A stretch of 64,000 nucleotides of DNA, from contig NZ_ATXB01000001.1 of the NCBI RefSeq assembly GCF_000421465.1, positions 2,201,001-2,265,000 of the forward strand, read 5' to 3'. This document shows positions 9,384 through 36,922 of the stretch, one piece after another. How positions within the stretch are numbered: position 1 is the first letter of the stretch; each line of letters starts with the position of its first letter. The DNA comes from Methylohalobius crimeensis 10Ki. GTDB lineage: Bacteria > Pseudomonadota > Gammaproteobacteria > Methylococcales > Methylothermaceae. The notes under the pieces are model-generated. The model was given only the letters and a program-made list of their open reading frames with translations, did no database searches and was not told where the DNA came from. The translations under genes were made by a program, and so were the position numbers.

Positions 9384-10412
9384 TCATTGCTGATTTTGAT
9401 CCCATTCCCGATGATAGCTTTCGATGAGCTCCATTTCCTTTTTGGCCCCCAAAAACAGCGGTACCCGCTGATGTATATCCTTGGGCTTTAAAGCCATCAC
9501 CCTCTCCCTGCCGGTGGAGATGACGCCGCCGGCCTGCTCCACGATGAATCCCATCGGATTCGCCTCGTACATCAGACGCAAACGCCCTTCCAACCCCCTG
9601 GTCTTCAGCTTGTCGTCCAAAGGATAGGTCCAAACGCCCCCGCGCATTAGAATGCGGTAAACCTCGGCGACGAAGGAAGCGATCCAGCGCATGTTGAATT
9701 CCTTGTCCAAAGGCCCTTCTTTTCCCTGCTCGCATTCTTCGATGAACCGACGAACCGGCGGCTCCCAGAAACGCCGATTGGACATATTGATCGCAAATTC
9801 CTTGGCTTCCTCGGCGATACGGATGTTGGGGTGGGTCAGAATGAATTCGCCCACGCCCTGATCCAGGGTAAAGCCATGGGCCCCGTTACCGGTGGTCATG
9901 ACCAGGGTGACTGCCGGACCGTAAACGCAGAAACCGGCGCAGACCTGCTCGCTTCCCGGTTGCAAAAAGTGCTCCTCGGCCGGTTCGTCCACGCCTTCCG
10001 GGCAACGCATCACCGAGAAAATCGTACCGATGCACATGTCGATATTGATATTGGACGAACCGTCCAACGGATCGAAACAGACCAGATACTTGCCTCGATT
10101 CTGCTTGGGCACTCGAATGACCTCGTCGTTTTCCTCCGAGATCATCGCCGCCACGTGGCCCGAGCGGCGGAGGATATTCACCATGATGTCATTGGAAAGC
10201 ACATCCAGCTTTTGCTGCGCTTCCCCTTGAATATTCTCCTCCCCCGCCTGACCGAGATTGCCCACCAAGGCGCCGTAACGAACCTCGCGGGCGATCGCCT
10301 TGCACGACCGGGCAATATCGCTGATCAACAGCGTCAATTCACCGGTGGCTCCGACCGCCTTGCGCTGCTCCTGAATCAAAAACTCGGTTAGGGAAATACC
10401 TTGACCTTGCAT
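9384..10412 (-). CDS. fbp: Fructose-1,6-bisphosphatase class I
   Basis: 342 residues from the ATG at 10412. An in-frame TTG at 10424 is less likely because GGAGG sits 5 bases before the ATG and overlaps that TTG region. It hydrolyses fructose-1,6-bisphosphate to fructose-6-phosphate (gluconeogenesis, Calvin cycle). The metal-binding motif FDPLDGSSNIN lies near residue 110, and GGVWTYP and LRLMYEANPMGFIVEQAGG near 255-290 are typical of class I. It is the last gene of gap-pyk-fbp, 30 bases after pyk. Having fbp beside pyk puts opposing glycolytic and gluconeogenic steps in one transcript. Confidence 0.96.
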   Translation of the reverse strand: MQGQGISLTEFLIQEQRKAVGATGELTLLISDIARSCKAIAREVRYGALVGNLGQAGEENIQGEAQQKLDVLSNDIMVNILRRSGHVAAMISEENDEVIRVPKQNRGKYLVCFDPLDGSSNINIDMCIGTIFSVMRCPEGVDEPAEEHFLQPGSEQVCAGFCVYGPAVTLVMTTGNGAHGFTLDQGVGEFILTHPNIRIAEEAKEFAINMSNRRFWEPPVRRFIEECEQGKEGPLDKEFNMRWIASFVAEVYRILMRGGVWTYPLDDKLKTRGLEGRLRLMYEANPMGFIVEQAGGVISTGRERVMALKPKDIHQRVPLFLGAKKEMELIESYHREWDQNQQ

Positions 10413-12932: not shown

Positions 12933-13289
12933 AAATGATTCTCCAAAGGGTTATACTTTCCACCCAACAAATGGGCGCCCATAATTCTGGAATTTAATGC
13001 ATCAACTATAACAAACTCGGCGAAGCCACGTCCAGATGCCGCCCTTCCGCGGGACTCACCGATACATAAAATCATTACAATATCCGCCGCCGCTCCTTTT
13101 TCTTCTTTGACGGCCCTTACCGCACCTCAAGCGCCAATGGTCCGCCAACTCTTCCCGTTGTCATCGTATCTTCATCCTCTCGTAAAAATTCTGAAACCTT
13201 CCCCCCCCACAATTGCGGCTTGAGCTCGCTGGGTTAGCCGCAACGCTTTCCCTTTTTATTAAGGTCAAATTTAAGAGGACATCGCGATC
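12933..13289. other. 357-base divergent intergenic region between gap and the uptake locus
   Basis: No gene. It holds a perfect 12-base palindrome ATGGGCGCCCAT at 12971-12982 upstream of gap, a run of eight C at 13201-13208, and a hairpin at 13213-13243 in front of the uptake locus. I found no promoter pair with convincing boxes and spacing in either direction. Confidence 0.7.
13213..13243 (+). promoter_or_regulatory. Leader hairpin upstream of the TonB uptake locus
   Basis: TTGCGGCT (13213-13220) and AGCCGCAA (13236-13243) form a perfect 8-base-pair stem with a 15-base loop. CGCTTTCCCTTTTTATT follows. It lies 46 bases before the start of the first gene. It resembles a weak terminator or attenuator, or an operator dyad. 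It is directly preceded by a C8 tract. Confidence 0.45.
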
Positions 13290-14984
13290 ATGACGTATCG
13301 AAAGATGAGCAAGACCATAGTGCTCTCATTAGGACTCGGCCTGATTTCCGGGGGCACTCATGCAATCACCATCAATCAATCTCTCAACGGTATTTGGTGG
13401 GAAGGTCAAGAGCGCTGGGGACGCGGCATCATCGTCGAGGTAGTAGACAAAGCCAATGGCCAAGAGATCGACCCGGCCCTGACCATCGACTGGTTCACTT
13501 ACGACAACGGCGGCAATCAAATTTGGCTCCACGGCGCAGCACCGATCGAAAGCAGCGGCAACGCCATCCAAGTTCCGCTGCAGCGCTTCACCGGCGGTCG
13601 CTTCGACGATCAGCACCGCTTCGCCGATACGTCTGCGATCGATTGGGGCAACGCAACATTCACTTTCAATACCTGCGATTCCGCAACCGTGGAGTTCCAA
13701 GGCCAAGACGGCAACGGCAGCATGCAGGTGAGCCGGTTCTCCTCCCTCGAAGGCAGCCAGTGCGTGCATGAACAAGCCTTCCAAAGCTGCCCGGATTTCT
13801 CGCAACCCTTGGATACCCCGGGTTTCTGCCTGCTACAAGGGACCATCACCCAGGATGCGACTCTCACCAACGACATTACCTGGGTACTGCAAGGCGGCGT
13901 ATTTATCGGCAACGACAACGCCAACAGCGCCACCCTCACCATCGAGCCGGGCACCCGCATCATCGGTCAGCAAGGCCCCGACTTCTTGTGGATTCGGCGC
14001 GGCTCTAAGATCAACGCCGTGGGCACGCCTCAGCATCCGATCATCTTTACCGGCACCCAAGAACAAGCACCCGGTGAATGGGGCGGGCTGGTGATTGCAG
14101 GCAACGCGCCTGTCAACGGTTGTAATGAAACCGTCGAGGTTTGCGAAACGCCCTTTGAAGCCATCACCAGCGAGCTGTTCGGCGGCAATAACCCCCACGA
14201 AAGCAGCGGGGTATTGAAATACGTTCAGATTCGCTACGCCGGCAACCAGGTTCGTCCGGACGAGGAATTGAATGCCCTCACCCTGCTCGGCGTCGGCGAT
14301 GGCACTTTGATCGATTACGTCCAATCTCATGAAGGTCTGGACGACGGCGTGGAGATGTTCGGCGGCACCGTCAAACTTAAACACATAGTCCTGACCAATA
14401 TCCACGACGACAGTCTGGACTGGGGATCCGGCTGGACCGGTTCGGCTCAGTTTGTCTTGGCTAAACAAAGAGAAGACGACGCCGACCGCTGCATCGAGGC
14501 GGACAACAACGAGGACGCTTTCGACAGCCAACCGCGCTCCAAACCGACGATCGCCAATATGACCTGCATCGGTTCCCCCATCAGCGGCCAGGGTTTCGAA
14601 TTGCGTCGCGGCACGGGCGCCAACCTCTTTAACTCGGTAATCGTCAATTCTTCCACCTGCATTCGGGTCTCCGACGAAGCCACGTTTACCAACGCCGGCA
14701 CGCCCGACAACTTGACGGGTGAGTTGACCATCCAGCACAGCTACGTGGACTGCCCGAGCAATTTCGCCGACGGCAACGGCGCCACTTTTGCGGTCAGCGA
14801 CTGGTTCGCCGCCCAGGCGGGCAATGTCGCCGGCAATCCGCAATTGGACGGCTTCTTGCCCGCGGAGGGTTCGCCTCTGATCAACGGAGGCACTTCCGCG
14901 GAAGGTCTGGACCCGGCGGATTTCGTCGGCGCCTTCAAAAGCCGCTACGACGATTGGACCTTCGGCTGGACCACCGGCCTGTAA
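13290..14984 (+). CDS. Secreted two-domain protein, predicted beta-helix
   Basis: 564 residues with a signal peptide (hydrophobic core IVLSLGLGLISGG, likely cut after THA). Residues about 28-155 form a small beta domain of the type seen in other proteobacterial secreted proteins (SLNGIWWEGQERWGRGI, then DWFTYDNGGNQIWLHG). Residues about 160-560 contain repeating strands typical of right-handed beta-helices: LTIEPGTRIIGQ, INAVGTPQHPIIFTGT, LKYVQIRYAG, then repeated short hydrophobic strands with N, D and G turns. Cysteines are paired (VNGCNETVEVC). It is the first gene of the uptake locus, and such proteins often accompany TonB-dependent receptors. No catalytic residues are recognisable. It may bind the substrate or act on it at the cell surface. 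Confidence 0.7.
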   Translation: MTYRKMSKTIVLSLGLGLISGGTHAITINQSLNGIWWEGQERWGRGIIVEVVDKANGQEIDPALTIDWFTYDNGGNQIWLHGAAPIESSGNAIQVPLQRFTGGRFDDQHRFADTSAIDWGNATFTFNTCDSATVEFQGQDGNGSMQVSRFSSLEGSQCVHEQAFQSCPDFSQPLDTPGFCLLQGTITQDATLTNDITWVLQGGVFIGNDNANSATLTIEPGTRIIGQQGPDFLWIRRGSKINAVGTPQHPIIFTGTQEQAPGEWGGLVIAGNAPVNGCNETVEVCETPFEAITSELFGGNNPHESSGVLKYVQIRYAGNQVRPDEELNALTLLGVGDGTLIDYVQSHEGLDDGVEMFGGTVKLKHIVLTNIHDDSLDWGSGWTGSAQFVLAKQREDDADRCIEADNNEDAFDSQPRSKPTIANMTCIGSPISGQGFELRRGTGANLFNSVIVNSSTCIRVSDEATFTNAGTPDNLTGELTIQHSYVDCPSNFADGNGATFAVSDWFAAQAGNVAGNPQLDGFLPAEGSPLINGGTSAEGLDPADFVGAFKSRYDDWTFGWTTGL

Positions 14985-15059
14985 GGGCACTTTTCCCCTG
15001 CGCAAGGAGCACGGTGGCGCACGGAATGCGCCATTTTCTCTTTATGAAGATCAACGATC

Positions 15060-15845
15060 ATGAACGGCTATTCAAACTGGAAACCTTCTAAATACCTGCT
15101 GCTGTCCGGGTTGATACTAGCGGGACTTATAAGTGCTGATGCTGCAATCGCCAAAACGCCTGACCTGGATCGGCTGGCGCAAGAATTGGCGCGGCTGCGC
15201 AGCGAAGTCAATCAACTCCAGCAGAAGCTCGACCAGGCCAAAACCCATCACCACCATCAAATGGAAGCGCTAGGCGCTCAAATCGCCCAGCTGGAGGCCG
15301 AAAAAAGGCGCCAGGTGCTGTCCGTAAAAAAACTCGAGGCCAATCTGGAAGATATTCGCCGGCAAGTGCCGGCCGATCAAGTCACCGGCGCCGAACTCGT
15401 TCCAGCCTTGCAACACGCCATCGGCGTGCTCAATGAATACATCCAATCAAGCTTGCCTTTCAAACGGAAAGAACGGCTCCAAGCAGTGGATGCAATCGCA
15501 AACAAATTAGATCAGGGGACGGTTCCTCCCAAAAAACTGGCCAATCAATTGTGGGCGTTGGTGGAGGACGAATTGCGTCTGACCCGGGAAAACGGCCTTT
15601 ATCGGCAAACCGTTTCCGTGAATGGACAAAATGCGCTTGTAGATACGGCGAAGCTGGGTATGACCCTGCTGTATTTCCGTACCCCCGATGGGCGCTACGG
15701 CATGGCCCGCCGGAAAAATGAAGAGTGGCGGTTCGAAGTCACCGCCAACCCGGAAGACAGTCAACGAATCGAACACTTGATGGAATCCCTGCGCAAACAG
15801 ATCCGCCAGGGTTATTTCGAACTCCCCAATCCAGGGTATCAATGA
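15060..15845 (+). CDS. DUF3450 family periplasmic coiled-coil protein
   Basis: 261 residues with a signal peptide (YLLLSGLILAGLISADAAIAK). A long coiled coil at about 30-100 contains HHHH, followed by a globular part. DUF3450 proteins are encoded directly upstream of TtpC-type ExbB-like proteins in Vibrio and Shewanella TonB2-like loci and presumably form part of the energising complex. The stop TGA overlaps the start of the next gene (ATGA at 15842-15845). The gap to the preceding gene is 75 bases with no clear terminator. Confidence 0.85.
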   Translation: MNGYSNWKPSKYLLLSGLILAGLISADAAIAKTPDLDRLAQELARLRSEVNQLQQKLDQAKTHHHHQMEALGAQIAQLEAEKRRQVLSVKKLEANLEDIRRQVPADQVTGAELVPALQHAIGVLNEYIQSSLPFKRKERLQAVDAIANKLDQGTVPPKKLANQLWALVEDELRLTRENGLYRQTVSVNGQNALVDTAKLGMTLLYFRTPDGRYGMARRKNEEWRFEVTANPEDSQRIEHLMESLRKQIRQGYFELPNPGYQ

Positions 15846-17320
15846 TGAGGATGCGAATTTATCCCTTGAGCTTGTTGTGCTGCCTGCTGGGCATCGGTGC
15901 AGCGTACGCCGGATCGGCGTCGAATACCGCGCCGACCGCAGCACCTGAAAGTACCCCCAAAGCTGCCGGCGCACCCCCTGGCGCATCGCTGGAAGCAGTC
16001 TACAAACGGGAGTTCGCTTTTTTGGATACCCAGAAAAAGGAGCTCCAACGCCTTCTGAATGAATTCGCCGCGACCAGTGCCGCCGACGAACGCCGACTGG
16101 ATCGCAAAATCTCGGCCCTGCAAAACCGCATCATGGAAATATCCCTTCAAGCCAAGCGGCTGGAAAAATCCATCATCGAAGCGGAACAGCACAACAGCCA
16201 AATCCAGGAAAACGAATCGCTGCTGGAGATGACCTTTACCCAAGCTGAGACCAGCCTTGCCGATTACGGTCTCTCGAGCCAGGAAATGAAAAACAGCGAA
16301 TTGAGCGATGCCGACAAGCTCGCCCAACTATTCGATCGCGCACAGCAAGCGCTGATTAAAAGCGCCGGCTTGCATCAGCGAGACGGGAAATTTTTCCTGG
16401 AGGACGGTACGGAAGTGCCGGGCCGCTTGATCTTTGTCGGCAATATCGCCGCCTACGGAGTCAGCCCATCCGGCAGCGGCCTATTGATACCGGCGGGAGA
16501 AGGTCGCCTGAAATTACTGAATAAGCCGGGCGGCGCAAAAACCGCTAACGCCCTGGCCGAAGGAGAATCCTTATCCCATTTCAGCCTTTTCCTGTTCGAA
16601 AATCTGAACAAAGCCGTGGAAATCCAGGCCGAGAAAACCTGGAGAGGTATTTTGAACGACGGCGGACCGATCGCTTGGATTATCGCCGGACTGGGCGCTT
16701 TAGGCGGGCTGCTGATCCTGGTTCGCTTGGGGATCATTATCGGTGCCGGAAGAGGCGGAAAAAAACAGGTGAACCAGGTATTGCATGAAATGGCCCAGGG
16801 CGACAAGGATCAACTCCTGACGACACTCCCACGTGCCCCAGGCGCTTACGCGAGGGTCCTGGAGGCGAGCATCGCCCATCTGCAGATGCCGGAGGATGAA
16901 TGGGAGATCGCCGTTTCCGACGCACTGCTGCAACAATCGGTACGTCTCGATCGCTTTTCCGGATTGATTCTGGTGATCGCGGCGGTGGCGCCTCTTCTGG
17001 GGCTGCTAGGGACAGTCACAGGGATGATTTCCACTTTCGACGTGATTACCCAATTCGGAACCGGCGATCCCAAGCTGTTGGCGACCGGGATTTCCATCGC
17101 CTTGATCACGACCCAAGTGGGCCTGATCGTCGCCATCCCCACCCTGCTTTTAGGCAATGTGCTGAACGGTTGGAGCAGTAGCTTAAAAAACGACCTGGAA
17201 TTGGCCGCGCTGGGTGCCCGCGAGGCGGCCCAGGACCATACTTCTCCGGCGGAGTTGGAAGAAACCCTCGCTGAAGAAGAAGCCCAAGAAGCGCCTAGAA
17301 CAGCGTTTGCCGGAACATGA
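15842..17320 (+). CDS. TtpC-like protein: coiled coil plus MotA/TolQ/ExbB proton-channel domain
   Basis: 492 residues from the ATG at 15842 (second ATG at 15845). The upstream open frame is rejected because it runs inside the DUF3450 gene. There is a signal peptide (SLLCCLLGIGAAYAG), a periplasmic coiled coil at about 50-130 and a membrane helix at about 276-300. The TolQ/ExbB channel domain follows, with helices near 375-395 (APLLGLLGTVTGMISTF) and 425-445 (TTQVGLIVAIPTLLLG). This layout is that of Vibrio TtpC, the extra channel-like subunit required by TonB2 systems. The stop overlaps exbB (ATGA at 17317-17320). Confidence 0.88.
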   Translation: MMRMRIYPLSLLCCLLGIGAAYAGSASNTAPTAAPESTPKAAGAPPGASLEAVYKREFAFLDTQKKELQRLLNEFAATSAADERRLDRKISALQNRIMEISLQAKRLEKSIIEAEQHNSQIQENESLLEMTFTQAETSLADYGLSSQEMKNSELSDADKLAQLFDRAQQALIKSAGLHQRDGKFFLEDGTEVPGRLIFVGNIAAYGVSPSGSGLLIPAGEGRLKLLNKPGGAKTANALAEGESLSHFSLFLFENLNKAVEIQAEKTWRGILNDGGPIAWIIAGLGALGGLLILVRLGIIIGAGRGGKKQVNQVLHEMAQGDKDQLLTTLPRAPGAYARVLEASIAHLQMPEDEWEIAVSDALLQQSVRLDRFSGLILVIAAVAPLLGLLGTVTGMISTFDVITQFGTGDPKLLATGISIALITTQVGLIVAIPTLLLGNVLNGWSSSLKNDLELAALGAREAAQDHTSPAELEETLAEEEAQEAPRTAFAGT

Positions 17321-17937
17321 GTCTGAACTGGAATACGCTCTGGGGGCTTATCGCTTCCTATTTGGAAGCCGGCGGCTGGGTCATGCCGGTGCTGGTGGTC
17401 ATCCTGTTCCTGCTCTGGTTCAGCATCGGCTATCGCTTCATGCTCCTGCGCCGCGGCACTCGCATGAGTCTTGAATCCCTCTGGCAATCCATTCGCCAGG
17501 GACGGCCGATCCGCGGCGACGGCGTCTTGACGGAAACCGGACGTTTGGTCGCCCAAATCCTGCAGCGCCACCCGGAGCGCCTCGGTCAACTGGATTATCT
17601 GTTCAAGACGCTGCAGGGCCGGCTCAATCGATTCGAGATTCTGGCCAAATCCCTGGTGGTCACCGCGCCGCTGTTGGGACTCCTGGGAACGGTTTCGGGC
17701 ATGATCGAGACCTTCGATTCCCTGGCCGAAATGGCCTTGTTTCGTCAATCGGGCGGTATCGCCGGCGGCATTTCCAAAGCGCTATTCACTACCCAGATGG
17801 GCCTGGCGGTAGCCATCCCCGGATACTTTCTCCTGGCGGTGCAACAACGCAGGCAAAAGAATTTGGAAAGCGAGTTACTGCGTCTTCAGGACTTGATCCA
17901 TGAATCGCTGCATGAAGGATCGTCTCAAAATCATTAA
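17317..17937 (+). CDS. exbB: ExbB-type proton channel subunit
   Basis: 206 residues. Three predicted membrane helices near 18-40 (WVMPVLVVILFLLWFSIGY), 108-130 (APLLGLLGTVSGMIETFDSL) and 155-180 (TTQMGLAVAIPGYFLL). The MotA/TolQ/ExbB motif LLGLLGTVSGMI is intact. With ExbD it forms the inner-membrane motor that energises TonB. It is translationally coupled to the TtpC-like gene and five bases before exbD. It is the short ExbB2 form without a periplasmic extension. Confidence 0.92.
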   Translation: MSLNWNTLWGLIASYLEAGGWVMPVLVVILFLLWFSIGYRFMLLRRGTRMSLESLWQSIRQGRPIRGDGVLTETGRLVAQILQRHPERLGQLDYLFKTLQGRLNRFEILAKSLVVTAPLLGLLGTVSGMIETFDSLAEMALFRQSGGIAGGISKALFTTQMGLAVAIPGYFLLAVQQRRQKNLESELLRLQDLIHESLHEGSSQNH

Positions 17938-17942
17938 AAATT

Positions 17943-18347
17943 ATGCGTAGATTAAGACAAGACACCGAACAAGAAAGCCGCGTCGACATCTCCCCGCTGA
18001 TCGACGTGGTCTTCATCCTGCTGATTTTCTTCGTGGTAACCACCACTTTCGTCAAGGACATGAACCTGGACATCAACCGTCCGTCGGCCTCCAGCGCCAC
18101 CATGGCTCCCAGCAAGGCGGTTCGCATCTATATCGACAACCAGGGCGCGGTATACATCGACGAGCAACCCGTCCGGGTTTGGATGGTGCAAAGCAAGGTG
18201 CGAACGCTGCTCAGGGAAGGCAGCGAAGATGTATTGGTCGTCACCGATACCGAAGTTCCCGCCGGTCGCCTGGTGGAAGTCGTCGACCAAGCGCGTCTGG
18301 CGGGCGCCCAAAACGTGGGCGTGGCCACTCAGCAGGAGGCGGGCTAA
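17943..18347 (+). CDS. exbD: ExbD/TolR-type biopolymer transport protein
   Basis: 134 residues. One N-terminal membrane helix preceded by DISPLIDVVFILLIFFVVTT. The aspartate in LIDVVFILLIFF is the conserved proton-relay residue of ExbD/TolR. The periplasmic domain follows at about 45-130. It partners the ExbB encoded immediately upstream and sits four bases before tonB. Confidence 0.93.
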   Translation: MRRLRQDTEQESRVDISPLIDVVFILLIFFVVTTTFVKDMNLDINRPSASSATMAPSKAVRIYIDNQGAVYIDEQPVRVWMVQSKVRTLLREGSEDVLVVTDTEVPAGRLVEVVDQARLAGAQNVGVATQQEAG

Positions 18348-18351
18348 TTCC

Positions 18352-19023
18352 ATGACGGCCTCGGGAATACATTCTCAGCACAATCCGCAGCACCGGGGTT
18401 CGGAGTGGCGGCGCTGGACCGGCGCCACTCTGGTAGCCGCCACGGGTACATTAGGGGTGCTGGCGCTGGTGATCTGGATGAACGAATTTTCGTCGGCACC
18501 GGAGAAACAAGAGGAAGCTCGTACGGTAGCGTTGGATCTCTCCCCTGCCCCAAAACCCAAGCCCAAACCCAAATCCCGCAAGGTGCGCAAACAGGTCCAA
18601 CAAAGAAACCTTAAGCCGATTCCGACGCCGGATCTTGGCGCCGCCCTTTCCGGCATCGACTTTGGTTTGCCCGACGTCGGCTTGGAAGGTCTCGGAATGG
18701 ACGACCGTCTGCTGGGCGACACCCAAGTGGATAGTATGACCCAAGACAGTGTGGACACCCCCCCTGAAGCGGTGGTCACTGGAAACTTCCGATATCCGCC
18801 CGATGCCAAGAAAAAGGGAATCCAGGGTTATGTCTTACTCTCTATTTTGGTGGATAAGTCCGGCTCCGTCGAGGAAGCACGCGTGCTGGAATCCTCTCCG
18901 CCTGGCGTATTCAATGACAGCGCCCTGGAAGGAATCCGCTACTGGCACTTCAAACCCGCCCAATACCAAGGAAAACCGGTCAAAACCTGGGTCCAACAAA
19001 AAATCGTCTTCCAATTCGGTTAA
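18352..19023 (+). CDS. tonB: TonB energy transducer of the TonB2-type complex
   Basis: 223 residues from the ATG at 18352, with AGGAGG upstream at 18333-18338. Earlier in-frame starts lie inside exbD and are rejected. N-terminal membrane helix at about 25-45, a lysine-proline stretch PAPKPKPKPKSRK, and a C-terminal TonB domain at about 135-223 (KGIQGYVLLSILVDKSGSVEEA, then IRYWHFKPAQYQGKPVKTWV, ending in QFG). It should carry energy from the upstream ExbB/ExbD/TtpC-like complex to a receptor, most simply the one at 20232-23354. It is distinct from the tonB fragment at the left window edge. Confidence 0.92.
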   Translation: MTASGIHSQHNPQHRGSEWRRWTGATLVAATGTLGVLALVIWMNEFSSAPEKQEEARTVALDLSPAPKPKPKPKSRKVRKQVQQRNLKPIPTPDLGAALSGIDFGLPDVGLEGLGMDDRLLGDTQVDSMTQDSVDTPPEAVVTGNFRYPPDAKKKGIQGYVLLSILVDKSGSVEEARVLESSPPGVFNDSALEGIRYWHFKPAQYQGKPVKTWVQQKIVFQFG

Positions 19024-19027
19024 ATTC

Positions 19028-20197
19028 ATGATGCCCCGTTACTTGATTTATGGATTACTTGCCTTTCTCCTGGCGTCCGATGTTGTTTTCGCCGCTTCCA
19101 AACCCCAAAACTTCGGTGAGCAGCTCAATCTGGCGGCGCTGTTGGTCAAGGATAGGCATTACTCGCGGGCTTTGGGCATTTTATTGCGTCTCCCTCTGCC
19201 CGAAGGAGAGGATGAGGACGATAAGCAGAGTCGCCAGCGATTCCACACCTTGACAGGCCTTGCCTACCTGGGTTTGGAACAATATTCACAAGCCGGCGAG
19301 CGTTTCGAAAATGCGCTGGCATCCGGTCAGACCGATCCCCTCATTTATATCTATTTGGCCCAGGTCTATCACCAATTGAAACGCCATCAGAAAACCCTGG
19401 AGGCCATCGAGAAGGCAACGCCTCTGATCGATAAGTATCCCGCTCTCTATGAGATGAAAGCCCAAAGCCAGTGGGCGTTAAAACAATACGATCAAGCCTG
19501 GCGCACTTTAGTCATTGCCCGGGATCGATTTCCCAAAGACCCCCGATTTCTACGCCGGCAGGTTTTTTATCTGATAGAAAAACAATTGTATCGGCAAGCC
19601 GCGGATCTGGGCATGCTTTATCTTGATCTCAGTGAAAGGGGCCCCAAGGATTATGCCGCATTGGGCAACGCCCTGCGACACGGGGGACAGATGGAGCTGG
19701 CCAGCCATATCCTCGAACAAGGGCGGCTTTTATATCCACAAGATACAACCCTCGCCAAACTGCTGGCGAACACCTATTTCAGTCGGGAAATGCCTCTGGC
19801 TGCCGCCTGGATCATGGAACAAGCCGCCTGGGTGGACGCTTCCCTCTTCGCCGATGCAGCGGAGCTCTATCGCCGCGCAGGAGAACTCTACAAAGCGTTG
19901 CAAATCAATGCTTCGGTGCCGGACCCGAAAAGCAACCGGCGCGAACGAGTCGCCATTCTCTTGGCACTCAAACGCTACGAGCAAGTACTGGCGATGCACC
20001 GTTCCCTGGATCGGGTGGGGCTACTCCAGGACGATTCAATTCGCTACGCCCTCGCCTTCGCCGCCTATCGATCAGGGCATTTCGAGAAGGCCAAAACCTA
20101 TTTGAGCGCCATCCGAACCCCGAAGATTTTCCGACAGGCTTCAGAACTGAGGCGCTTGATCAAGGAATGCAAGGCCGAGCCTTGGCGCTGCGCATAA
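19028..20197 (+). CDS. Periplasmic TPR protein of the TonB2-type locus
   Basis: 389 residues from ATG 19028 (a second ATG follows at 19031). Signal peptide LIYGLLAFLLASDVVFAAS. The rest is helical repeats recognisable as tetratricopeptide units, for example LTGLAYLGLEQYSQAGERFENAL, quoted in part, and YIYLAQVYHQLKRHQKTLEA. A TPR gene directly after tonB2 is part of the Vibrio TonB2 cluster. It is probably a scaffold in the periplasm. It lies four bases after the tonB stop. Confidence 0.85.
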   Translation: MMPRYLIYGLLAFLLASDVVFAASKPQNFGEQLNLAALLVKDRHYSRALGILLRLPLPEGEDEDDKQSRQRFHTLTGLAYLGLEQYSQAGERFENALASGQTDPLIYIYLAQVYHQLKRHQKTLEAIEKATPLIDKYPALYEMKAQSQWALKQYDQAWRTLVIARDRFPKDPRFLRRQVFYLIEKQLYRQAADLGMLYLDLSERGPKDYAALGNALRHGGQMELASHILEQGRLLYPQDTTLAKLLANTYFSREMPLAAAWIMEQAAWVDASLFADAAELYRRAGELYKALQINASVPDPKSNRRERVAILLALKRYEQVLAMHRSLDRVGLLQDDSIRYALAFAAYRSGHFEKAKTYLSAIRTPKIFRQASELRRLIKECKAEPWRCA

Positions 20198-20231
20198 GAA
20201 AATTTCAACCCTACCGAAATCCAAAATATAA

Positions 20232-23200
20232 ATGATGAATTTTGTTATTCGCACTTTTTTGTGGGGATTGCTATGGCTTCCTATTATCGTCCAGGCGACT
20301 GAAGGAGCACACCTCCAACTCTACTTATTCTTGGCCGATCAGCCACTGGCCGGTGCTCAAGTTTATTTAGACGGGGATCTTAAAGGCGTAACCGACAAGA
20401 ATGGTGCGCTCTGGGTGAAATTGTCTGCCGGCGAGCACCGGCTTGAACTGCGTTCCGAAAACAAAACCGTTGCCGTCGTCCGACGTCGGTTCAAACCGAA
20501 CGAAGATATCCAAATTCTGATCACCACCCAACCGGACGGCTCGCCGTCGCGGGTTGCCGTAGAAAGCTCAGCAACCCATCGTCCATCAACGTCAGAAACC
20601 TCCACTCAAGAGAAGTCGGCGCCCCCTGGGACACTCGCAGGCAGAGTGATCGCCGCCGATACCGGTAAACCGATCGCCGGTGCCGAGATTTATTTAAGCG
20701 GCCTGGAACAACCGCTCGTCAGCGATAAAAAAGGACGGTTTACCACCCAAGCTCCTACCGGCAATTACAGCCTTTCGGTTACGGCCGGTGGCTATAACAT
20801 GCTGGTCAAAGAAAACATAAGCATTAACACAGAGCACACCGCTTCGGTGAATCTAGAGCTCACCCCGGCAGGCGTGGCATTACCGCCTTACATCGTCATC
20901 GAACCGCACCTGGCCGGCAGCGTGGCATCGGCCATCACCCAGGAACGTAGTTCCACCGCCGTCACCAATATTCTGGGTGCCGAGCAAATCAGCCGGGCCG
21001 GCGACAGCGATGTGGCCTCGGCTTTGAAACGGGTGTCCGGGGTCACCATCGTGGACGGCAAATATGCCTATATCCGGGGTTTGGGGGAACGCTATTCCAA
21101 CGTACTGGTCAACAGCATCAATGTCCCTTCGCCGAATCCCACCCGCCGCGTGGTTCCCTTGGATTTCTTTCCGTCGGGCATGCTGGACAGCCTCAACGTA
21201 CAAAAGTCCTTTTCCGTGGATATGCCCGCGGAATTCGCCGGAGGGGTGATCGACCTCCAAACCCGAAGCGTGCCCGACGATTTCTTGCTGAAATTCAGCG
21301 GCAAAATCGGGTTCAAAACCGGCACCACCTTCGATGACGGAGCAACCTACAACGGCGGCGATTACGACTGGATCGGGGTCGACGACGGCACCCGGGATCT
21401 GCCGGATTCCCTCGCCAAAGCACTCGCCAGCGGCACCCCGCTGCGTCCCGAGACGCCTTTCTCCGATGGCTTCACGCCCGAGGAAATCGAACAATTCGGG
21501 GAGAGCTTTTCCAATGTTTGGGAGATAGATGCAGAAACCATCCCCCCCGACGGAAGAATCAGCGGCGCGATCGGCGACAAGTTTCATTTCGGGGATTTCA
21601 ACTTCGGCTTCTATGCCTTGGGCCGCTGGGACCAAAGCTGGCAAACCACCGATGAAAGCCGCCGCTTCTATACCCCCAGCAGCACAGGACTTCAATTGAC
21701 CGATGATTTTGAGATTCGCCGAACCGTCCAAGAGGTCAATACCAACGCTTATTTGAACGTGGAAGCCGATTACCAGGAAGATCATAAAGTATTCGGTCGG
21801 GTCATGTTGGTTCGCCAAACCACCAACGAAGCCAGAGGTATGCAGGGGTTCAGCACCAGTAATGGGGCCGGCGGCGATCGCATACGGACGACACGATTGT
21901 GGTATGTGGAAAACGAGTTGTTCAATTGGCAGGCGGGCACCGAACATACCTTCAAGCGCTTGAACGATCTCTGGCTACGCTTTTTGTATTCGGGTTCCAC
22001 CGCCAGCCGTTCGGAGCCCAATCAACGGCGCACGCGTGCCGACGAACTCGGCAGCGATCCCGGAAACTTCATATTGGTAGGGAGAAATTTAAGCAACAAC
22101 CAAATCATCTTCGGGGATTTGGAAGACGAAGACGACAGCTGGCGGCTGGACCTTGAACTTCCGTTTCAATTGCTGGACGATCGCATAGAAGGATCGCTGG
22201 CATCCGGCTACTGGACCACCGAACGTTATCGGGATTCCGGCATACGTCGATTCAGTTTCGACATCTCGCAAATCAGCGACCCGGCCATCACCTCTCAATC
22301 GCCCGAGGACATATTCACCCCCGAGAATATCAGCCCGGAAGGCGCTTTTTTGAAGGAAACGACGCGTACCACCGACAGCTACACCGCCAGTCAGGCACTC
22401 GAAGCCTATTTCGGCCAACTGGATGTGACCTTCTTCAATCTCCTGCGCCTTACCGGCGGAGTTCGATTCGAGGACAACTTGCAAACGGTGGAGACGGTCC
22501 AGGAGTTCACGCCGGGCAGCGAACCCATTACCTCGATTCTCGAAAGCCGCGACGCATTGCCATCGGTCGCTTTGACCTGGCTGATCTCGGACAAACAACA
22601 ACTGCGTCTGACCTGGAGCGAAACCCTGTCGCGCCCGGACTTCCGGGAGCTTTCTCCCGCCCCGTTCATCGACCCCGAAACCGACCTCGAAACGACCGGC
22701 AATCCCAACCTACAGCAAGCCGAAATAACCAGCTATGACGCGCGCTGGGAGTATTATTTCTCCCCCGAAGAGAATGTGAGTTTCGGTTTGTTTTATAAGG
22801 AATTGATCCAACCCATCGAAAAGACCCAATTGGGAGGGACGGCCAACGTTTTAACGTTTCAAAACGCCGGTACCGGCGAAATTTATGGCTTGGAAATAGC
22901 CTTTCGCAAGAATCTCGATTTTATCCATCCTTGGTTGAACGGATTTTTCTTCGGCGGCAACTACACGCTTTCCGAGTCGGAAATCAAACTGTTACCGGAA
23001 AACCTGGAGGCGTTGACCAACCCGAAACGCCCCTTGCAAGGCCATTCCAAACACATCGTCAATGCTCGCTTGGGTTATGACAACGAAGACCTGGGCACCC
23101 AGGCCACCCTGCTCTACAACTTTTTCAGCCCCCGCATTTCCCAAGTGGGCGCCTTGGGGGCTCCGGATATTTACCGGCAACCTTTCCATCAACTGGACTT

Positions 23201-23354
23201 CATCGTTCAGCAGAACCTCGACGAGCACTGGTCGGCCCAGTTGCGTTTCCGCAATCTATTGGACAGCAAGGTCAAGTTTTCCCAAGGCAGCGAGACAACC
23301 CGCGAATATCGCAAAGGGCGCGAGTTCGCTTTAGCGATCAATTTTGCCTTCTAG
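20232..23354 (+). CDS. TonB-dependent outer-membrane receptor with two N-terminal accessory domains
   Basis: 1040 residues with a signal peptide ending near VQA. Residues about 27-105 are a PEGA or carboxypeptidase-regulatory-like domain, and about 133-215 a second regulatory-like domain (LAGRVIAADTGKPIAGAEIYL). The plug covers about 225-350 (AGDSDVASALKRVSGVTIVD, YIRGLGERYSNVLVNS, DMPAEFAGGVIDL). A long 22-strand-type barrel follows, ending in an aromatic residue (ALAINFAF). It imports an unknown substrate across the outer membrane using TonB. It is the last gene of the locus, 34 bases after the TPR gene. No substrate can be read from the plug. Confidence 0.9.
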   Translation: MMNFVIRTFLWGLLWLPIIVQATEGAHLQLYLFLADQPLAGAQVYLDGDLKGVTDKNGALWVKLSAGEHRLELRSENKTVAVVRRRFKPNEDIQILITTQPDGSPSRVAVESSATHRPSTSETSTQEKSAPPGTLAGRVIAADTGKPIAGAEIYLSGLEQPLVSDKKGRFTTQAPTGNYSLSVTAGGYNMLVKENISINTEHTASVNLELTPAGVALPPYIVIEPHLAGSVASAITQERSSTAVTNILGAEQISRAGDSDVASALKRVSGVTIVDGKYAYIRGLGERYSNVLVNSINVPSPNPTRRVVPLDFFPSGMLDSLNVQKSFSVDMPAEFAGGVIDLQTRSVPDDFLLKFSGKIGFKTGTTFDDGATYNGGDYDWIGVDDGTRDLPDSLAKALASGTPLRPETPFSDGFTPEEIEQFGESFSNVWEIDAETIPPDGRISGAIGDKFHFGDFNFGFYALGRWDQSWQTTDESRRFYTPSSTGLQLTDDFEIRRTVQEVNTNAYLNVEADYQEDHKVFGRVMLVRQTTNEARGMQGFSTSNGAGGDRIRTTRLWYVENELFNWQAGTEHTFKRLNDLWLRFLYSGSTASRSEPNQRRTRADELGSDPGNFILVGRNLSNNQIIFGDLEDEDDSWRLDLELPFQLLDDRIEGSLASGYWTTERYRDSGIRRFSFDISQISDPAITSQSPEDIFTPENISPEGAFLKETTRTTDSYTASQALEAYFGQLDVTFFNLLRLTGGVRFEDNLQTVETVQEFTPGSEPITSILESRDALPSVALTWLISDKQQLRLTWSETLSRPDFRELSPAPFIDPETDLETTGNPNLQQAEITSYDARWEYYFSPEENVSFGLFYKELIQPIEKTQLGGTANVLTFQNAGTGEIYGLEIAFRKNLDFIHPWLNGFFFGGNYTLSESEIKLLPENLEALTNPKRPLQGHSKHIVNARLGYDNEDLGTQATLLYNFFSPRISQVGALGAPDIYRQPFHQLDFIVQQNLDEHWSAQLRFRNLLDSKVKFSQGSETTREYRKGREFALAINFAF

Positions 23355-35725: not shown

Positions 35726-36922
35726 TCAAAAACGGAAAGACGCCAACAACGCAAACATATGCCAATGCCGCTGGCGCTCGGAAAGATCCGGGCTTTCCGA
35801 AAAAGCCAGCCAGCCGGTGCCATCCACATTGTGGTATTCGGCGCGCACCATAAACGCATTGGTAATATCCCAACGGATGCCTACCGTCCAATCGCGGGCA
35901 AAGCGGGTGTGACGGGGACGGCCGGTGAGGGCGGCGAATTTACGACCGCTGGTATCGTCGCGGTCGGCGAAAAACACATCGTAGCGGGCGACTAGCTCCA
36001 CGGAAGGCAACGGACGATAGCCTGCTTGAAGATAATAACTCTCACTGGTGACACTCATATCGGGTAATAAACGACCAAAATTATTAACCTCACTAAAACG
36101 CAGTGCGTATTCACCGGTCAGAGAAAACTTTTCACCGTCGTATTGGGCAGAAAAAATGACTGGTGCTATCGTTGCATCTCCAGCCTGAAAAGGATTGCTC
36201 CTAGAAGGATCATATCGGGAATGTACTTGAGCCCCCGTCAAGGCCAAACGTATCAATCCGCCTTGCAGCTCATAAGATAAACGCCCGATATAAGAAAACC
36301 TCGGCTCAAAACGACCGGGAAAATTTCCACCAATAACTAAACGCTCAAATTCCTTATCCTTAGTACCATTAGGCCAACCCGCTCCCAGACGAAGAAACCA
36401 ATCACCCCAGTTGGTGGAATATTCTCCATAGAATTGAAATCCGTCGCTGGCAAGACCAAAATTACGGGTTCGATCAAAATAAATACTCTGGGGGAGGAAA
36501 ATCGTCGGCCGAGTAAAAGCCACATCCCGAGTTTCGTTATAGAAACCCAAGGGATTTTTGACCCGGCCTAACATGATCCCCGCGCGGCCCTCGGTACCGG
36601 ACCAAAAGGCATAGTCGGCCAGGGCATAATCGAGCCGAAATTCATTGGGGTTGATCCGTCCGACACGGCGAAATACACCTTGCGCCGCCAGCATCAACGG
36701 CCCGTAAGGTCGTACCGAGAGATTGACGCCGGCCTCGGTAAAATCCAGGCTGCCGCTTTCACTGTCGCCGTAAAAATTATTCGCCGAAGTCAGGACAAAA
36801 CCTTGACTCAAAAAGCCATGAATTTGAGCGGTCCCTAACCATCCTTGCTCTTCCGCGCCACAGATCGAGCTCCATCCTAAAAAAACCGCCGCAGTCAGAA
36901 GTTGTTTCATATTGGAAATCAT
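35726..36922 (-). CDS. Outer-membrane beta-barrel (porin-like) protein
   Basis: 398 residues. Signal peptide ending at CGAEEQ (SIC-GA region), then alternating amphipathic strands rich in Y, W and G, ending in an aromatic residue (FALLASFRF), as outer-membrane barrels do. Segments such as LGRVKNPLGFYNETRDVAFTR resemble specific porins. ATG 36922 has GAGG 12 bases upstream, and ATG 36910 is an alternative. The middle part (about 36050-36550) is visibly more AT-rich than its neighbours. It is 13 bases after the PstS-like gene and ends one base from cpdA. Confidence 0.75.
   Translation of the reverse strand: MISNMKQLLTAAVFLGWSSICGAEEQGWLGTAQIHGFLSQGFVLTSANNFYGDSESGSLDFTEAGVNLSVRPYGPLMLAAQGVFRRVGRINPNEFRLDYALADYAFWSGTEGRAGIMLGRVKNPLGFYNETRDVAFTRPTIFLPQSIYFDRTRNFGLASDGFQFYGEYSTNWGDWFLRLGAGWPNGTKDKEFERLVIGGNFPGRFEPRFSYIGRLSYELQGGLIRLALTGAQVHSRYDPSRSNPFQAGDATIAPVIFSAQYDGEKFSLTGEYALRFSEVNNFGRLLPDMSVTSESYYLQAGYRPLPSVELVARYDVFFADRDDTSGRKFAALTGRPRHTRFARDWTVGIRWDITNAFMVRAEYHNVDGTGWLAFSESPDLSERQRHWHMFALLASFRF

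Follow-up and report, generated by a model that had tools for sequence, protein, structure and literature searches.

What does a bacterium take up with a set of genes that combines a secreted protein, a TonB-dependent receptor and a motor of its own? This question is raised by the locus at positions 13290-23354 of the DNA stretch analysed here (64 000 nucleotides of Methylohalobius crimeensis 10Ki, probably a methane oxidiser; the whole stretch is referred to as the window). Iron, B12 and glycans are the best-known cargoes of TonB transport, and the initial annotation of the locus had left its cargo open among metal, haem, polymer and chelate. Pho boxes and neighbouring phoBR and pst genes point to phosphorus as the cargo class, as judged from sequence, and we predict that the locus is a Pho-controlled, self-energised TonB-dependent uptake module for a phosphorus compound, a reading that we consider likely.

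Eight open reading frames (ORFs), all on the + strand, make up the locus, and the ORF list and Pfam searches confirmed their presence, their order and the short gaps and overlaps described in the initial annotation. The gene of a secreted protein with a predicted beta-helix (hereafter BH) comes first and that of the receptor last; between them, DUF3450, TtpC-like, ExbB, ExbD, TonB and TPR genes follow in one run, which is the gene set of a TonB2/TtpC-type energiser according to Pfam. Gaps measure 75 bp (BH-DUF3450), 5 bp (ExbB-ExbD), 4 bp (ExbD-TonB and TonB-TPR) and 34 bp (TPR-receptor), and the DUF3450-TtpC and TtpC-ExbB pairs overlap by 4 bp; start codons of the TtpC-like, TonB and TPR genes, all three ATG, were chosen by hand. 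The same six kinds of motor gene occur in the TonB2 system of Vibrio (TtpB2, TtpC2, ExbB2, ExbD2, TonB2 and TtpD2); when Vibrio vulnificus takes up iron through TonB2, it requires both TtpB2 (DUF3450) and TtpD2 (TPR) (PMC6957404). In contrast to the phosphate role predicted for the window motor, that of Vibrio has been studied for iron siderophores and is induced by iron limitation (PMC6957404). No SusD-family protein was matched among the eight (Pfam, E 0.001), and a SusD-like lid of the SusCD/PusCD type was set aside on this ground.

A scan of named genomes with eight aligned BH relatives confirmed 156 relatives, and all locus counts out of 80 given below refer to the best 80 of these. The family was present in 51 of 398 genomes sampled across the phylum, with the closest named loci in Methylothermaceae, Methylohalobius included. 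The same receptor type was encoded near BH in 64 of the 80 loci and the full eight-gene set in 38, so the grouping is not due to chance. Among the 16 loci without an intact receptor, seven end at a contig edge (L065, L068, L078, L086, L096, L097, L099), one (L064) has a broken receptor beside BH and eight are of Nitrosomonas type (L037-L042, L050, L052). Five of these Nitrosomonas-type genomes were searched (L037, L038, L041, L042, L052), and in each a single full-length receptor gene lay at another site, preceded by the six-gene motor; its product shares 44-46% identity with the window receptor. The sequence comparison thus supports that BH tracks this receptor type across genomes, and the view that motor, receptor and secreted partner belong together, already put forward in the initial annotation, finds support in these counts and by a DUF3450 clade of this module (see below). 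In L064, a Nitrosomonas mobilis record, the receptor lies in short fragments upstream of BH at 9563, with BH and a Pho-like site kept; in a congener (genome G003, locus L200), it is encoded in two overlapping frames of 337 and 943 residues.

Profiles built here detected phoB/phoR or pst/phoU genes in 25 of the 80 loci, arranged as phoBR after the receptor, phoBR before BH or pst genes after BH. Pfam families among the conserved neighbours were PhoR, PhoU, a PstS-type binding protein, PstA/C-type permeases and an ABC ATPase; the label PhoB was given to response regulators containing Trans_reg_C, which in most loci also adjoin PhoR. Prior-free expectation-maximisation on 75 non-redundant BH upstream regions resulted in the motif TGT[AC]A[TC]ANNNCTGTCAT, a tandem Pho box, with a log-likelihood of 360 vs 64-78 in four mononucleotide-shuffled sets. 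With a general Pho-box matrix, 24 of 65 BH upstream regions, and 9 of 13 of a long-form BH described below, were at or above the 95th percentile of 857 other ORFs from the same loci, as against 0 of 41 for TtpC.

The same matrix was used in a locus-wise test with 100 dinucleotide shuffles per region and group labels assigned from record titles and similarity (L068, L181, L201, L202, L232-L235, gene-less loci, upstream regions below 100 bp and N-containing stretches were omitted). BH upstream regions reached p <= 0.02 in 27 of 42 loci of the gamma and other group, 12 of 25 Nitrosomonas-like loci and 9 of 16 loci from other classes of the phylum. For non-Bdellovibrionota loci this corresponds to 48 of 83 BH regions, compared with 0 of 36 for TtpC and 3 of 39 for ExbD; over all groups, the threshold was reached upstream of DUF3450 in 20 of 51 cases, TtpC in 0 of 50, ExbD in 3 of 51 and the receptor in 8 of 92. 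All five genomes with a split module had a Pho-like pair scoring 14.2 or more before DUF3450. Separate promoters with unrelated regulation had been named in the initial annotation as speaking against a joint system; in Nitrosomonas-type loci BH and motor do have separate promoters, both of which bear Pho boxes.

In the window, the half-sites TGTCAT (13159), CTTCAT (13170), CGTAAA (13181) and TGAAAC (13192), spaced by 11 bp, precede BH. Scored as four repeats, using a half-site matrix from the de novo motif set that included the window itself, the array at 13159 ranked first of 127,922 positions (whole window, both strands), and 0 of 1000 shuffles reached its score; scoring with three repeats had the same outcome. 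All four half-sites are in register with the stronger arrays of L036 and L046, and the general Pho-box matrix gave p 0.03 for the window BH upstream region. The site is weak as a classical Pho box and notable as an array. The source genome contains a PhoR gene with an adjoining response-regulator gene; PhoX gave a partial match there and PhoD was not found. We infer that the window genes are themselves under phosphate control. Elsewhere in the source genome, a perfect triple Pho-box array precedes a Porin_O_P gene (L117 1501-3016; C1:309577).

Pairs resembling BH and its receptor are already known from work on phosphate starvation. ElpS (CC0170) of Caulobacter crescentus is a lipoprotein that phosphate-starved cells display on their surface and later release; elpS adjoins the TonB receptor gene cc0171 and type II secretion genes, and its overexpression raised phosphatase activity in the supernatant (PMC2996285). 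The window likewise has a secreted-protein gene beside a TonB receptor gene in a predicted phosphate-starvation setting, and the Caulobacter order recurs in L164 and L176, the two loci examined, as BH, receptor, gspC, gspD and gspE, the gsp genes being confirmed by Pfam; a GspE-like gene is on the receptor's strand in 7 of the 16 loci L163-L178. The window BH differs from the lipoprotein ElpS in its plain signal peptide and additional N-terminal domain, and its locus adds the six-gene motor. BH may be kin to ElpS, beside which it is set by gene order and not by sequence comparison. In Flavobacterium johnsoniae, FI, FII and FIII are phosphate-induced lipoprotein exoproteins, for which weak homology to the Caulobacter protein is reported, at 31-36% identity across roughly half of it; the FI and FII genes adjoin TonB-dependent transporter (Tbdt) genes and FII is in a phoBR operon (PMC8115612). 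By description, BH is similar to FI and FII in being an exoprotein with an adjoining TonB receptor gene and a predicted phosphate link, whereas FI, FII and FIII come from another phylum, are lipoproteins and are mentioned without motor genes in the available part of that paper (PMC8115612). The initial annotation had proposed an undescribed system. This does not hold for the type of pair (ElpS/CC0171, PMC2996285; FI and FII with Tbdts, PMC8115612); apparently new are a dedicated TonB2/TtpC-type motor for such a pair, the presence of Pho boxes on each half of a split module and a hairpin conserved behind BH, at which no literature search was aimed. Among the titles and abstract starts listed in searches that covered few subscription papers, none joined a TtpC/DUF3450 motor to phosphate control, and DUF3450 together with phosphate starvation and a TonB-dependent receptor gave no paper.

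Several observations weigh against a phosphorus module under Pho control. Scored as a pair, the window array ranks second and 11 of 1000 shuffles reach its score, which is weak alone, and the promoter of the congener G003 (L200) has no significant Pho site (p 0.149). No pho/pst gene was present in the examined DNA of 55 of the 80 loci, and the 25 loci with such genes are not independent because relatives share synteny. Bdellovibrionota-like loci had p <= 0.02 upstream of BH in 0 of 17 cases. In Caulobacter, deletion of elpS left phosphatase activity unchanged, ElpS itself is no phosphatase and expression of cc0171 was seen whether the medium was rich or poor (PMC2996285).

In the uptake module that we favour, PhoB would bind the array at 13159 and switch on the operon. 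The product of the first gene, an ElpS-like beta-helix protein, would be secreted, and probably in surplus, as the hairpin behind the gene would hold back part of transcription. BH would bind or trim a phosphorus compound that porins could not supply because of its size or scarcity; the 1040-residue receptor would import it, powered by the DUF3450-TtpC-ExbB-ExbD-TonB-TPR motor encoded in the same locus, and periplasmic phosphatases and Pst would then take over. The receptor has plug and barrel domains and an N-terminal CarboxypepD_reg domain. Its model, with a predicted local distance difference test (pLDDT) score of 85.5, matched TonB receptors (best Z 35.8, to BtuB), HasR among many others; as their ligands include haem, iron chelates, B12 and others, the fold does not tell the substrate. 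A PDB sequence search gave 2 weak matches, both to the N-terminal domain. Receptors that are linked to Pho and have a motor of their own occur in methane oxidisers, ammonia oxidisers, marine Alteromonadales and Bdellovibrio relatives, which suggests that this phosphorus route is widespread; the finding gives ElpS-type uncharacterised proteins a concrete context and indicates promoters and genomes to test.

How BH acts is the point on which the best-surviving alternative differs. BH, of 564 residues, matched no family in Pfam or NCBIfam at E 0.001, nor in Pfam at E 5, and a PDB sequence search with the family gave 0 matches up to E 1. It consists of a signal peptide, a variable N-terminal domain (about residues 30-160) and, in an AlphaFold2 model (pLDDT 86.1), a right-handed parallel beta-helix from about residue 160 to 564. 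VIA-align related the model to PL6 alginate lyases, mannuronan epimerases and polygalacturonases (Z 19.4-23.1, identities 6-14% in the rows shown), the best alignment of this predicted structure having Z 23.1 and a root-mean-square deviation of 3.8 over 305 aligned residues, a lyase/epimerase-type fold. BH could accordingly be an enzyme (lyase, hydrolase or epimerase-like) that cleaves a polysaccharide carrying phosphate, or another polymer, with the receptor importing the fragments, which would leave the phosphorus purpose as it is. D351, D352, E355, D373, D374, D377, E403, D405 and R439, invariant across 43 sequences, sit on or beside successive strands in the model, and FI and FII have been modelled by others as polygalacturonase-like (PMC8115612). 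However, the identities are just 6-14% and many beta-helices share the fold but not the activity; Foldseek found nothing in the PDB at E <= 0.001 (top rows were nitrophorins, with about 150 columns aligned), and no catalytic set was matched. We give an enzymatic BH serious but tentative weight, below that of the reading we favour.

With respect to export, a simple pattern found no lipobox in the plain signal peptide of the window BH and no lipoprotein signal in five further methanotroph- or Nitrosomonas-type rows; such a signal was present in 15 of the 16 loci L163-L178 and in 3 of 3 Alteromonadales-type rows checked. Since a gspE gene above the family cut-off is present in the source genome, type II secretion is a possible, predicted route for BH. 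The N-terminal domain (residues ~25-160; window 13365-13770), which has no Pfam match, recurs in many proteins of the relatives G011 and G018. In the long-form BH of about 930 residues (L100-L115), for which the phylum search gave two tandem profile matches in one frame, the second match follows the first, and this Alteromonadales-type form looks like a duplicated beta-helix. A 2OG-Fe(II) oxygenase gene (PF13640, one member scanned) lies ahead of it in L100, L105, L106, L108 and L115.

Whether the eight genes form one operon depends on the hairpin behind BH. Folding of the first 80 bases after the upstream stop codon, compared with shuffles, gave z <= -2 in 42 of 46 BH-receptor and 17 of 21 BH-DUF3450 junctions, and also in 5 of 5 receptor-DUF3450 and 2 of 2 TPR-BH junctions (L068, L090, L104, L181, L201, L202 and junctions above 1200 bp were omitted). 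The remaining junctions gave 1 of 44 (TonB-TPR), 10 of 43 (ExbB-ExbD), 8 of 42 (TtpC-ExbB), 2 of 42 (ExbD-TonB), 0 of 41 (DUF3450-TtpC) and 4 of 35 (TPR-receptor); as most of these overlap coding sequence, receptor-BH junctions with BH last are the fairer control, with 5 of 21. The window hairpin, which most relatives have at the corresponding position, has z -1.9, and terminator-like sites across the whole stretch (19) barely exceed those in shuffles (14.3, standard deviation 3.4). Judged from its sequence, the hairpin may be a partial terminator that keeps BH in excess; as a candidate attenuator it predicts that BH acts in excess, and such an excess would distinguish a scavenger or enzyme from a lid paired one-to-one with the receptor. 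Alternatively, it is a complete terminator, BH being its own unit and the rest standing under another promoter, so that the locus is a gene cluster and not one operon. The stem with its T-rich tail would fit, and in six relatives (L077, L080, L081, L082, L085, L087) the receptor behind BH has its own Pho-box-like site. Against this, the window BH-DUF3450 gap gave neither a sigma-70-like match on the + strand nor a Pho-like site (score 4.9) in scans that do not exclude a promoter, and we regard complete termination as rather unlikely.

A bolder version of the uptake module takes the haemophore system as its model, in which HasA and HasR work with a dedicated TonB, HasB. The likeness is one of function (secreted scavenger, receptor, dedicated TonB); nutrient and regulator differ. 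BH would be a released 'phosphophore' made in large excess from a Pho operon with an attenuator; outside the cell it would pick up organic phosphate, metal-bridged or polymeric, for delivery to a receptor powered by a dedicated TonB2-type motor. The BH-receptor pair would have acquired such motors at least twice, in Methylothermaceae, Nitrosomonas and Bdellovibrionota on the one hand and in Alteromonadales and relatives on the other. The phosphophore would, if true, be a widespread high-affinity phosphorus route besides porin and Pst; as a whole we hold it to be unlikely.

The motor's history was followed through DUF3450. Two other DUF3450 loci in the source genome exceed the family cut-off, scoring 294 and 271 bits vs 112 for the window copy, which falls in a different clade. 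A midpoint-rooted tree of 70 DUF3450 proteins split at 100/99 support. One side holds 43 rows, 42 from this module (window copy included, with L036 and L201 as an identical pair and L195-L199 as the five split loci) and L228, which was found via DUF3450 alone and has the same module in its neighbourhood, with Pho pairs before DUF3450 and before BH. The other side holds both other host copies, the module's eight Alteromonadales rows and a further 17 rows from the DUF3450 search; wider neighbourhoods were examined for 4 of these 19 DUF3450-search rows, and L223, on this side, is BH-linked. As DUF3450 of the module lies on both sides, the module appears to have taken up a TonB2-type motor at least twice, the deep joins being unsure because of long branches.

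More improbable still than the phosphophore is an importer of metal, haem or a metal chelate like the iron TonB2 systems, with Pho control incidental or reflecting metal phosphates. Vibrio TonB2 systems do serve iron siderophores (PMC6957404), and the acidic face of BH could bind cations. Such cargo was put aside in view of a promoter motif and neighbouring genes of the Pho type, no Fur or other metal-regulator box having been searched for; the available text of PMC10875860, consulted for lanthanide phosphate, names nothing of the BH family. Surface signalling, in which the receptor would sense phosphate or a ligand and regulate genes instead of bulk import, is very improbable: a sensing role was considered for Cc0171, but deletion of cc0171 did not stop ElpS production (PMC2996285), no STN domain was found in the window receptor (Pfam, E 0.001) and no sigma/anti-sigma pair was seen beside it on reading the window ORFs.

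Features of the locus, with positions in the window.
Feature	Position	Strand	Basis
BH secreted protein, 564 aa	13290..14984	+	ORF; signal peptide, N-terminal domain, beta-helix
DUF3450 protein (TtpB-like), 261 aa	15060..15845	+	PF11932, 112.6 bits; own clade
TtpC-like MotA/ExbB-domain protein, 492 aa, long N-terminal part	15842..17320	+	PF01618 at 339-452
ExbB, 206 aa	17317..17937	+	PF01618 (MotA_ExbB)
ExbD, 134 aa	17943..18347	+	PF02472
TonB, ~223 aa	18352..19023	+	PF03544 (TonB_C); start chosen by hand
TPR protein (TtpD-like), ~389 aa	19028..20197	+	TPR families; start chosen by hand
TonB-dependent receptor, 1040 aa	20232..23354	+	PF00593, PF07715, PF13620 (N-terminal CarboxypepD_reg)
Degenerate Pho-box array, four half-sites	13158..13198	+	Motif scan vs shuffles; 131 bp before BH start
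Hairpin, 9 pairs and T-rich tail, BH-DUF3450 gap	15013..15045	+	Candidate attenuator or terminator

Among minor observations, a conserved ORF of about 92 residues without a Pfam match lies between receptor and BH, or directly before BH, in Nitrosomonas-type loci (L049 9177-9452, similar in 7 loci). The record titles of L063, L068 and L085 (Planctomycetota and Klebsiella pneumoniae metagenome-assembled genomes) clash with their Nitrosomonas-like and gammaproteobacterial gene content, and these are probably mislabelled or mixed bins. Outside the locus, a 398-residue ORF on the - strand of the window (35726-36922), with no Pfam match at E 0.001, is porin-like by reading.

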